Shown here: positions 53,209 to 57,233 of the stretch, piece after piece
Numbering within the stretch: the first letter of the stretch is position 1
Layout of the letters: each line of letters starts with the position of its first letter
Origin: Sulfobacillus thermotolerans
Lineage (GTDB): Bacteria > Bacillota > Sulfobacillia > Sulfobacillales > Sulfobacillaceae
Direction of reading: 5' to 3'
Assembly: GCA_002951815.1 (NCBI GenBank)
Contig: CP019454.1
Location: 1,302,001 to 1,366,000 of the forward strand
Length of the DNA: 64,000 nucleotides
Notes under the pieces: generated by a model
The model's database searches: none
What the model was told of the DNA's origin: nothing
What the model saw: only the letters and a program-made list of their open reading frames with translations
Position numbers and translations under genes: made by a program

Positions 53209-54444
53209 GTGTCTTTGGTGATCCAGAAATTCGGCGGGACTTCGGTGCGTGACGCAGCGCGTCGTGACATTGTGGCGCAATGGGTTCAAAAAGCTGTGCG
53301 AGAAGGGCACCATGTCGTGGTTGTGGTGTCGGCAATGGGACGGCTTGGCGATCCGTACGCGACCGATACGCTCTTATCGTTACTAGATAATGGCACCGAA
53401 GGCGCGTTGGATGAACGCGATCTTTTGATTTCTTGTGGAGAAATTATCAGCGCGGTGATTCTTGCGGGTCATTTGCGGTCGGTGGGGTTGCAGAGCCGGG
53501 CCATTACGGGTGGAGATGCGGGGATTGTCACCGATGCGAATTTTGGTGATGCGCGCATTGTGGAGGTCAAACCTCAAGCCTTAGAAAGTTTAGTGGCTCA
53601 GGGGATCGTTCCGGTGGTTGCGGGATTTCAAGGGCGAACGCCCGATGGGCGGGTGGCGACGCTGGGACGCGGAGGATCTGACACCACTGCTGTAGCCTTA
53701 GGGGCAGCGCTAGGGGCAGAGGTTGTCGATATTTTTACCGATGTCGATGGGATTAAAACAGCCGATCCCCGCATTGTCCCAGAGGCGCGGACGATTTCTT
53801 CGTTAGATTACGAAGAGGTGTTTCAGTTGGCCAATCTTGGCGCGAAGGTGATTCATCCTCGGGCGGTAGAAATTGGGAGACAGTTTGGCGTGACGATCCG
53901 CGTCCGATCCACGTTTTCGGAGTCGTTAGGCACTATTATTGCGTCGGGTCAGGGCATATTGGATGCGTGGGGCCACCGTGATCCGGACCATTCTGTAACC
54001 GGTATTACCCAACTAGACCACTTGCTGCAATTTCGTGTCACGCCACCGGAAACTATGCACAAAGATTGGGCGTTTCAACTATTTATGGCATTGGGCGAAC
54101 GCGGCGTTTCCGTGGATTTGATTAATCTCTTTCCCGACCAAGTGTACTTTTGTGTGCCGCCCGAGAAAAATGCTGTGACCCAAGAAATTCTCGAAACTAG
54201 CGGGTTTGGCTATGAGGCGTTTGACGATCGGGCTAAAGTGTCCATTGTCGGGTCCGCTATTCAAGGACTTCCAGGAGTCGTAGGACGGGTGATGGCGGCC
54301 ATGGCGCAATCGGATATTGAAATTCTGCAATCGGCGGATTCGCATTCGACGATCACCCTTTTATTGCATCGCTCTGATATGGAAAGGGCGGTGAGTGCAT
54401 TACACAAACAGTTCCATTTGGCTGAGGAGGTGCCCAAAGGATGA
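53209..54444 (+). CDS. dapG: Aspartate kinase
   Basis: A 411-residue amino-acid kinase with two C-terminal ACT domains (about 265-411). K-F-G-G-T-S-V at the N-terminus and G-R-G-G-S-D-T-T near 165 are catalytic blocks. The position after asd and before dapA matches B. subtilis dapG, the diaminopimelate-sensitive isozyme active during sporulation; the feedback ligand itself is inferred. GTG at 53209 follows GGGAGGAGA. Confidence 0.9.
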   Translation: MSLVIQKFGGTSVRDAARRDIVAQWVQKAVREGHHVVVVVSAMGRLGDPYATDTLLSLLDNGTEGALDERDLLISCGEIISAVILAGHLRSVGLQSRAITGGDAGIVTDANFGDARIVEVKPQALESLVAQGIVPVVAGFQGRTPDGRVATLGRGGSDTTAVALGAALGAEVVDIFTDVDGIKTADPRIVPEARTISSLDYEEVFQLANLGAKVIHPRAVEIGRQFGVTIRVRSTFSESLGTIIASGQGILDAWGHRDPDHSVTGITQLDHLLQFRVTPPETMHKDWAFQLFMALGERGVSVDLINLFPDQVYFCVPPEKNAVTQEILETSGFGYEAFDDRAKVSIVGSAIQGLPGVVGRVMAAMAQSDIEILQSADSHSTITLLLHRSDMERAVSALHKQFHLAEEVPKG

Positions 54445-55352
54445 GATGGCCACGAGTTTTTACAGCAATGATTACACCCTTCACCGAGGAAGGCAGCATC
54501 GATGTCGAAGCCGCCGAAGGGTTGGCGCGGCATTTGGTGGCTCACGGAACGCAGGGAGTAATTTTGGCAGGCTCGACCGGGGAAGCTTTTAGCCTGAGTC
54601 CTGATGAGCGGTACCGGTTGTACACGGCTGTGCGCCGGGGGGCGGGTGACATGGTGCCGGTGTGGATGGGATGTGGCACGAATGACACCCGGTCAACGGT
54701 TGACTTGGCGATGGCGGCCGATGAGTGGGGTGCGGATGGGGTACTGGTTGTGTCGCCATACTACAATAAGCCTTCGCAAGAAGGGTTAATTCGTCACTTT
54801 GGGGAAGTCCTCCACCATGTTACCTGTCCGGTTATGCTCTACAATGTCCCTTCGCGTACCGCTAGTATGGTCGAGGCCGACACCGTGGCCAAGATAGCCA
54901 AGAAAGCGCGTGCACCTTTTGCGGTGAAAGAGGCTTCCGGTACGATCGAGCAAATTATTCGCTTAGATCAAATTCTGGGGTCTGAGGTGCCGATTTTTTC
55001 CGGTGACGATAGTCTATATCTAGCGAGTTTGGCCGTTGGCGCGTATGGTTTGGTATCGGTGGCATCGCACGTGGTAGGAATGGAAATGGAACAGATGACA
55101 GAACTCTTTATATCTGGCCATCCTGACGAGGCGAGGATGCTACACGCGGACCTCTGGCCTTTGTTTAAACAACTCTTTGTTGTTTCAAATCCCATTCCCC
55201 TTAAATGGTTGCTACATCGCTTGGCGTTGGCTCCGCGAACGGTGCGAATGCCCTTAGTCATGCCGGAGGATGCGGTATTTGGTGACTTATGGTTGGCGTA
55301 CTTGCGAGCGAAGCATATTCGCCAGATGCCTATAAGCTCTGTAAAAAATTAG
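54441..55352 (+). CDS. dapA: 4-hydroxy-tetrahydrodipicolinate synthase
   Basis: A 303-residue class I aldolase condensing aspartate semialdehyde with pyruvate. The Schiff-base Lys lies in V-K-E-A-S-G near residue 163, the Tyr in Y-N-V-P-S-R-T near 135, and G-S-T-G-E-A-F near 47. ATG overlaps the dapG stop by 4 bases. Its product feeds both lysine/cell wall and dipicolinate. Confidence 0.94.
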   Translation: MRWPRVFTAMITPFTEEGSIDVEAAEGLARHLVAHGTQGVILAGSTGEAFSLSPDERYRLYTAVRRGAGDMVPVWMGCGTNDTRSTVDLAMAADEWGADGVLVVSPYYNKPSQEGLIRHFGEVLHHVTCPVMLYNVPSRTASMVEADTVAKIAKKARAPFAVKEASGTIEQIIRLDQILGSEVPIFSGDDSLYLASLAVGAYGLVSVASHVVGMEMEQMTELFISGHPDEARMLHADLWPLFKQLFVVSNPIPLKWLLHRLALAPRTVRMPLVMPEDAVFGDLWLAYLRAKHIRQMPISSVKN

Positions 55353-55358
55353 TGGCCA

Positions 55359-55388
55359 TTGCGTGCAATAGTCCAACCGCGTTATAAT
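55359..55388 (+). promoter_or_regulatory. Promoter of the RNase J leader
   Basis: TTGCGT (55359-55364), 18-base spacer, perfect TATAAT (55383-55388), just after the dapA stop. Transcription would begin around 55395. Confidence 0.65.
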
Positions 55389-55394
55389 TAACGC

Positions 55395-55522
55395 AACGAC
55401 TTAGTGCTCGGTGGTCAAATGGGGTGTAGCGGTTCAGCATAGCGCGGAAGGGAGCTGAAAGCGCCGCCTCAAATCAGATGCCCCTGGCATAAGTCCCTAG
55501 TCGGATGGCTAGGGGCATTTTG
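55395..55522 (+). ncRNA. Unidentified structured leader RNA with terminator/antiterminator
   Basis: From the promoter to the RNase J gene lies about 130 bases with strong structure. A hairpin GCGG-TTCAGC … GCTGAA-(AGCG)-CCGC sits at 55429-55467. ATGCCCC (55478-55484) can pair either upstream with GGGGTGT (55421-55427, two G-U pairs) or downstream with the AGGGGCAT arm (55511-55518), the latter making an 11-bp terminator followed by TTTT. The two pairings exclude each other, the logic of a riboswitch or attenuator. I matched it to no known class. Confidence 0.55.
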
Positions 55523-55561
55523 ATGTGCTCCGTGTGCGGGATAAATAGGAGGTGGGTTACA

Positions 55562-57233
55562 CTGGCACGCCCAGGACCCGGTAAATTACAGTTTATCCCC
55601 TTAGGGGGATTGGGAGAGATTGGAAAAAACATTTCGGCTGTTGTCTATGGCAACGATATTATTTTGATCGATTGCGGGCTAGCGTTTCCGGAAGTCGATA
55701 TGCCCGGAATTGATTTGGTTTTGCCTGACATTACCTATTTGCTGGAGAATAAGGACCGCGTACGCGCGATTTTTCTGACGCATGGTCACGAGGATCACAT
55801 TGGAGCTATTCCCTATTTTCTGAAGCAAATCTCTGTTCCCATTTATGGGACCCGGTTGACGATGGGAATTGTAGAGATGAAACTGCAAGAACATCAGGTG
55901 AGTCTGCATCCCAAGTCCCATCCGGTGGAGCCCGGTGATACGGTCAAGGTCGGGAATTTTTCCGTTGAATTTTTCCGCGTTAACCACTCGATTCCTGATG
56001 CGACCGGCTTAATTATTCGCAACCCAGTCGGAACGATAGTGCATACAGGGGACTTTAAATTTGATCACACGCCTGTCGATGGACACGTTGCGGATTTTCA
56101 TAAGTTGGCGCAAGTCGGATCGGAAGGCGTTTTGTTATTGTTGGCCGATAGCACCAATGCGGAACGACCGGGTTATACCCCTTCGGGAAAAAACGGTAGG
56201 GAAAACCTTAGACCGCATTATCGAACAGGCCAAAGGGCGGGTGCTTGTCTCGTCGTTTGCGTCGCAAGTGCACCGCATTCGTCAGGTCGTGGAGTCGGCT
56301 GTTCGCCATGGGCGTCATGTTGCCGTTGTCGGACGTAGTATGGAAAATATCGTGCAAAAAGCGATTGAGCTCAAATACCTTGATTTTCCTGAAGGTACTT
56401 GGATGTCGCTGGATGCGGTATTACGCCAGCCCCCCCAAAAGACGTTGATTTTAACTACGGGCTCGCAAGGCGAACCAATGTCTGCCTTGACGCGCATCTC
56501 GACGTCCGACCATAAAAAAGTGGAAATCTATGCGGGAGATACCGTAATCATTTCGGCGACCGCTATTCCGGGCAACGAAAAAATGGTGTCTCGGACGGTC
56601 AACAACTTGTACCGTTTGGGCGCGGATGTTTACTATGGCCGCGATTTAGGCATTCACGTGTCGGGACATGCTTGCCAAGAAGAGTTAAAACTCATGCTCA
56701 ATCTGGTCAAGCCGAAGTTCTTTATTCCAGTTCATGGGGAATATAGGCATTTGGTGCATCATGCGCAATTGGCTCGGGATATAGGAATGGACCCTAGCCA
56801 TATTTTAATTGGCGATAATGGTAGCCTATTTGAACTCACGGCGGACTCGATGCAGTTGGTAGGACAGGTGCCTGCGGGTAAGGTATTAGTCGATGGCTTT
56901 GGCGTCGGTGACGTCGGCAATATTGTATTGCGTGACCGCAAACAATTGTCGAATGACGGGATTTTGATTGTGGTGGTGGGTATGGATGCCCAATCTGGTC
57001 TTTTGGTTTCAGGCCCCGACATTGTGTCCCGGGGATTTGTGTATGTGCGTGAGTCCGAAGCCTTACTCGACGAAGCACGGTCGCGGGTCAAAACGGCGTT
57101 GACGACGATGGAAGGGGGCACTTTGACGGAGTGGTCCGCAATTAAGGGCGTTGTGCGCGATACCCTGGGCCGATTCCTTTGGGACCGGACCAAGCGGCGA
57201 CCGATGATTTTGCCGATTATCATGGAAGTGTAA
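55562..57233 (+). pseudogene. rnj: Ribonuclease J, interrupted by an apparent +1 frameshift
   Basis: Reads as RNase J, the metallo-beta-lactamase/beta-CASP 5'-3' exo- and endoribonuclease. G-H-E-D-H-I-G-A (about residue 75) and H-T-G-D-F-K-F-D hold zinc ligands; P-V-H-G-E-Y in the second half belongs to the beta-CASP part. The first half ends its good homology at the GGGAAAAAA tract (56185-56193); the rest continues in the +1 frame. Removing one base restores a normal 556-residue protein. It could be a sequencing error, a real mutation, or recoding. The best start is CTG at 55562, 9 bases from AGGAGG; no ATG or GTG fits. Confidence 0.8.

Follow-up and report, generated by a model that had tools for sequence, protein, structure and literature searches.

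A conserved leader RNA with a 5′-end helix and an overlapping terminator-like hairpin upstream of the RNase J gene in Sulfobacillus and relatives

The RNase J gene rnj of Sulfobacillus thermotolerans is preceded by a leader RNA that is conserved in Sulfobacillus and relatives and is absent from the Rfam catalogue. It is proposed to represent a cis-acting transcription-attenuation element of rnj, with RNase J itself as the most likely regulator, a reading to which a probability of roughly 0.5 is assigned. RNase J occupies a central place in the mRNA decay of many Gram-positive bacteria. Within the open-access literature, no leader RNA was found to be reported for its gene, and Rfam contains none either.

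Results

Locus, promoter and start of rnj

Within the window, i.e., the whole stretch of 64,000 nucleotides that was analyzed, the leader sits between dapA (54441–55352) and rnj (55562–57233, forward strand), in the position in front of rnj that had been given in an earlier note made from the sequence alone. The complete genome of the Sulfobacillus carrying the window comprises 3.3 Mb. The leader RNA (55396–55524, forward strand) extends from a putative +1 near 55396 to just beyond a U-tract and is conserved in all 11 genera of the family. It is preceded by a sigma-A type promoter (55359–55388, forward strand) composed of TTGCGT (55359–55364), an 18-nt spacer and TATAAT (55383–55388). This promoter had been noticed before, and alignment of the leader-upstream regions of relatives corroborated it, both the placement of the -10 box and the TTGC within the -35 box being conserved. 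Furthermore, the conserved leader start is located 7 nt past the -10 box in most relatives. Since conservation thus starts at the predicted +1, it was counted in favor of an attenuation leader.

The window copy of rnj contains a one-base frameshift near 56186–56195, adjacent to a GGGAAAAAA run; the gene is in frame in all of the 24 relatives checked. The frameshift, which leaves the leader untouched, probably stems from a sequencing error or else arose recently by mutation. The translation initiation region (55547–55564, forward strand) consists of the Shine-Dalgarno sequence AGGAGGTG (55547–55554) and a probable CUG start codon (55562–55564). In most leaders of three families (L010–L068), CUG is the first in-frame codon at ribosome-binding distance, 8–9 nt past GGAGG. 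In many members, the only in-frame competitor near the CUG is a GUG embedded in the Shine-Dalgarno sequence, a GUG that is out of frame in the window species and its sister. Genera g4, g7 and g10 feature an AUG near the place of the CUG. Judged from these reading frames, rnj appears to start at CUG in most members. A short AUG-GGG-UGU-AG frame of the window was considered as a leader peptide and rejected, as it is absent from relatives according to the alignment inspected by eye.

Distribution of the leader

By means of BLAST, the leader was found in 20 of 41 related genomes, always directly upstream of rnj, and dapA was located upstream of it in only about half of these genomes. A covariance model (R1) built from the 20 leaders detected the element in 33 of 34 family genomes at E<=1. 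All high-quality genomes (23/23) and all genera (11/11) were positive, showing a single strong match each upstream of rnj, and matches in incomplete genomes were not convincing, e.g., in G007 (61% complete, E 0.88). Searches of the class and the phylum with the same model yielded no convincing match beyond the family, and no second gene carrying the element was found in family, class or phylum. A match in G103 outside the order (E 5e-4) was rejected because it lies away from the rnj loci of that genome. Likewise, three weak matches from the phylum (L195–L197) were discarded, none of them being located at rnj; L195 resembles, by eye, what we take to be the terminator of a cobalamin riboswitch. 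A loose pattern scan of genome contigs returned almost exclusively chance matches, except for Sulfobacillus records.

The covariance model fails to detect versions of the leader in two sister families of the order. Inspection of the rnj upstream regions of these families revealed the same layout in divergent versions, which start approximately 7 nt past TATAAT or TATACT and possess a 5′ end resembling ACGACUGUGUGCGGCGGUU or ACAACUUUGUGCGUGGUGU followed by a hairpin. A terminator-like hairpin was recognized in these versions, except in genus g12.

In that genus, which belongs to family f2, the rnj leaders (L063, L065, L066, L068) share the related 5′ end GCGUGCGGYGG without a U-tract and without a clear terminator. 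Their 5′ end can pair with the segment just before the Shine-Dalgarno sequence, a pairing that is uncertain, and they perhaps represent a translational variant. In other families of the class (L064, L070, L071, L073), rnj is separated from a TATAAT-like box (TAAAAT in L071) by terminator-like hairpins. These hairpins have neither similarity to the Sulfobacillus leader nor a match in Rfam, and may be attenuators or dapA terminators.

Conserved hairpins of the leader

The architecture of the leader was deduced from a structural alignment of 23 members (A2). In the helix P1, the 5′ strand GACUUAGUGCUCGGUGG (55398–55414, forward strand), the putative antiterminator that sequesters the 5′ end of the transcript, is paired with the 3′ strand CCCCUGGCAUAAGUC (55481–55495, forward strand), GACUU(A)-UGCU-GG-GG matching CCCC-GGCA-(U)AAGUC. 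The 5′ strand is nearly invariant and P1 is paired in 100% of cells across the 23 species; 13 of its 14 pairs never vary in the alignment, so that P1 shows no covariation within the family. RNAalifold proposed the upper part of P1 and the terminator unprompted. When the leader was folded up to the terminator 3′ arm, almost every member, f3 and genus g14 among them, was predicted to contain P1 in its minimum free energy structure; P1 was partial in g15 and absent in g12. Moreover, shuffle tests on single sequences lent support to P1 for many members of the family (p about 0.01–0.07); it was not significant in g2, g9, g10, one of the two g4 members and the sister families.

Hairpin P2 (55433–55459, forward strand) is formed by UUCAGC (55433–55438) and GCUGAA (55454–55459). 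It is paired in 97% of cells, and four of its pairs are changed on both sides, resulting in 31 double-change cells, a count reached by none of 500 shuffles. Covariation thus bears out the compact hairpin domain that the earlier note had postulated. The apex loop is purine-rich and RACGGG-like. Conservation extends to loop residues and to the GGyGG strand within P1. Folding of the single sequence was only mildly better than that of shuffles (z -2.25). Despite this value, conservation across 11 genera together with the covariation of P2 establishes a leader structure beyond chance.

Terminator and competing folds

The terminator-like hairpin T1, GUCCCUAGUC-GGAU-GGCUAGGGGC (55493–55522, forward strand), comprises 10 pairs at 55493–55516 followed by AUUUUG. 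It is paired in 100% of cells in the 23 members and includes one doubly-changed pair. The U-tract is short, namely UUUU, or UUU in some genera, and is absent in g12. In the earlier note, ATGCCCC had been regarded as the terminator arm. The corresponding pairing with AGGGGCAT (T2) can indeed form in the window, but it is paired in 83.9% of cells across members without covariation, and most genera favor GUCCCUAG as the terminator arm; in the main genera, T1 (GUCCCUAGUC/GGCUAGGGGC) is the better supported terminator pairing. The antiterminator proposed there, GGGGTGT paired with ATGCCCC, had to be rejected as not conserved, 44.7% of cells being paired in the 23 members versus 30–44% in slid controls. 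Of the suggested attenuation switch, the architecture with two competing folds was retained, and the role of the antiterminator passes from GGGGTGT to the 5′ end of the transcript, GACUUAGUGCUCGGUGG.

The complementarity underlying P1 and T1 is universal among the members, and competition between the two helices is apparent from the sequence and from predicted energies. In the main genera, their overlap is limited to three bases, GUC (55493–55495). Forcing the full P1 is predicted to leave a terminator of 7 pairs, and forcing the full T1 to free the first ~8 nt of the transcript. The P1-extended and the T1-complete fold are predicted to be 1.9 kcal/mol apart in the window, and about 0.3–3.8 kcal/mol in five other divergent members; the predicted fold of the full leader accommodates the P1 core together with T1. 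In g9 (GCCCCUGGC/GCCAGGGGC) and the f2 genera g14 (CCCCCAGC/GCUGGGGG) and g15, the P1 3′ strand, by way of its CCCC-GC part, doubles as the terminator 5′ arm, and exclusion of the two folds is therefore complete there. Hence, two features characteristic of a transcription attenuator were found, namely a terminator-like hairpin with a short U-tract (UUUU) between promoter and start codon, and an alternative helix that is conserved and, through the shared GUC, incompatible with the complete terminator.

Furthermore, AUGUGC following the U-tract (55523–55528, forward strand) is complementary to GCAUA of the P1 3′ strand, and the bases just past the U-tract are conserved (UGUG) in members. The segment GCAUAAG fitted the post-U-tract segment (CUUGUGC and variants) of the matched species better than permuted ones (0/5000 permutations), a comparison that is confounded by kinship. 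A third pairing between these segments is only suggestive.

Comparison with Rfam

No covariance model of the Rfam 15 families matched at the gathering threshold, neither in the window nor in the leaders of relatives. The best sub-threshold match was NsiR1 with 14.4 bits (threshold 39, E 1.9), and the T-box model gave no match. This agrees with the visual comparison in the earlier note, in which lysine, glycine, SAM, T-box, preQ1, fluoride and SRP RNAs had been found not to correspond. The same note had recommended an Rfam search and a covariation analysis of relatives' leaders, and had named a family match or a lack of conservation or covariation as evidence against its switch-like RNA. Both analyses were carried out: no family matched, the leader is conserved in 11 genera and P2 covaries.

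Discussion

From this architecture, we infer actual termination, the direction of the response and the identity of the regulator as follows. Once CCCCUGGCAUAAGUC is transcribed, the RNA would fold back to pair its first ~19 nt with this segment, and the resulting P1 would hide the 5′ end. As the shared GUC would then keep the base of the terminator open, the polymerase would continue into rnj (ON state). Opening of P1 in its lower part would allow the terminator stem to close down to the U-tract and transcription would halt (OFF state), with ~8 nt at the 5′ end left unpaired. P2, which lies between the two strands of P1 and carries the purine-rich loop, probably serves as sensor domain. An excess of RNase J would act on the emerging 5′ end, tip the balance towards the terminator and thereby curb its own synthesis. 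Points that weigh against this reading are the near-invariance of P1 within the family, its non-significant shuffle tests in the sister families, the short U-tract and the limitation of the P1–T1 overlap to three bases in the main genera.

RNase J, considered the most likely regulator, acts on single-stranded 5′ ends. According to PMC5419742 and excerpts of PMC10303841, its 5′ exonuclease activity requires an accessible 5′ end, and pairing of the 5′ end shields mRNA against RNase J1 (PMC5419742). Autoregulation is established for the RNase genes rne, pnp and rnc (PMC3997798) and, as excerpts of PMC10303841 state, for rny. Moreover, the element accompanies one gene, occurs in one copy per genome and includes the 5′ end of the transcript in the switch, which together point indirectly to autogenous control by RNase J. 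A narrower version, in which the leader acts as an inbuilt sensor for RNase J and seizing or trimming of the first ~8 nt stops P1 from holding the terminator open so that rnj transcription ends, is doubtful. If it were true, a 5′ exonuclease would gauge its own free activity via a three-base branch migration, and CUG initiation would act as a second brake.

Other explanations share the same architecture. A 5′ helix around a hairpin domain with an overlapping terminator is also the layout of a riboswitch expression platform, so P2 and its purine-rich loop could be the aptamer for a small molecule or ion that stabilizes P1 or the terminator, and the conserved loop residues and GGyGG strand of P1 would fit this function. 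However, no Rfam riboswitch matched, the P2 region is variable in both length and sequence, with a small unpaired core, and the sole target across the family, a housekeeping nuclease gene, argues mildly against it; confinement to one gene would fit autogenous control better than it fits a metabolite riboswitch. A riboswitch is accordingly regarded as unlikely. The RACGGG-like apex loop of P2 would equally suit contact with another RNA-binding protein or with a trans-acting antisense RNA, but neither a conserved leader peptide nor a T-box was detected in the alignment and the Rfam search, respectively, and control by such a factor is likewise judged improbable.

The leader might also sense nothing, the 5′-protecting helix and a partial terminator merely fixing the rnj level or releasing a stable short RNA. 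The stabilization of mRNA against RNase J1 by 5′-terminal pairing (PMC5419742), the weakness of the U-tract and the predicted coexistence of the P1 core with T1 are consistent with such a passive element. Nevertheless, the overlap between P1 and the terminator is kept by differing solutions, T1 in most genera and T2 in g9, g14 and g15, which suggests that competition has been selected, and a passive role is likewise considered unlikely. For the preferred reading, autogenous attenuation by RNase J, a compact bistable leader present across an order makes it possible to test directly whether a 5′ exonuclease can regulate its own transcription via the 5′ end of the message that encodes it.

Among known systems, riboswitches, T-boxes and ribosomal-protein leaders of Firmicutes resemble the rnj leader in combining a competing helix with a terminator between promoter and gene, but the leader belongs to none of these families. 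In the case of rny of Bacillus subtilis, excerpts of PMC10303841 describe a Gram-positive decay nuclease that limits its own mRNA via the 5′ region with trimming by RNase J1; this system differs in that cleavage takes place in the ORF and the 5′ UTR, and the excerpts describe no conserved switch or terminator. The rne 5′ UTR element of enterobacteria (rne5, RF00040) is likewise a hairpin leader of the gene for a major mRNA-decay nuclease, and autogenous control is known there. Whereas rne5 works via mRNA decay by RNase E, the rnj leader, which has no Rfam match, features a terminator that overlaps the helix formed by the 5′ end.
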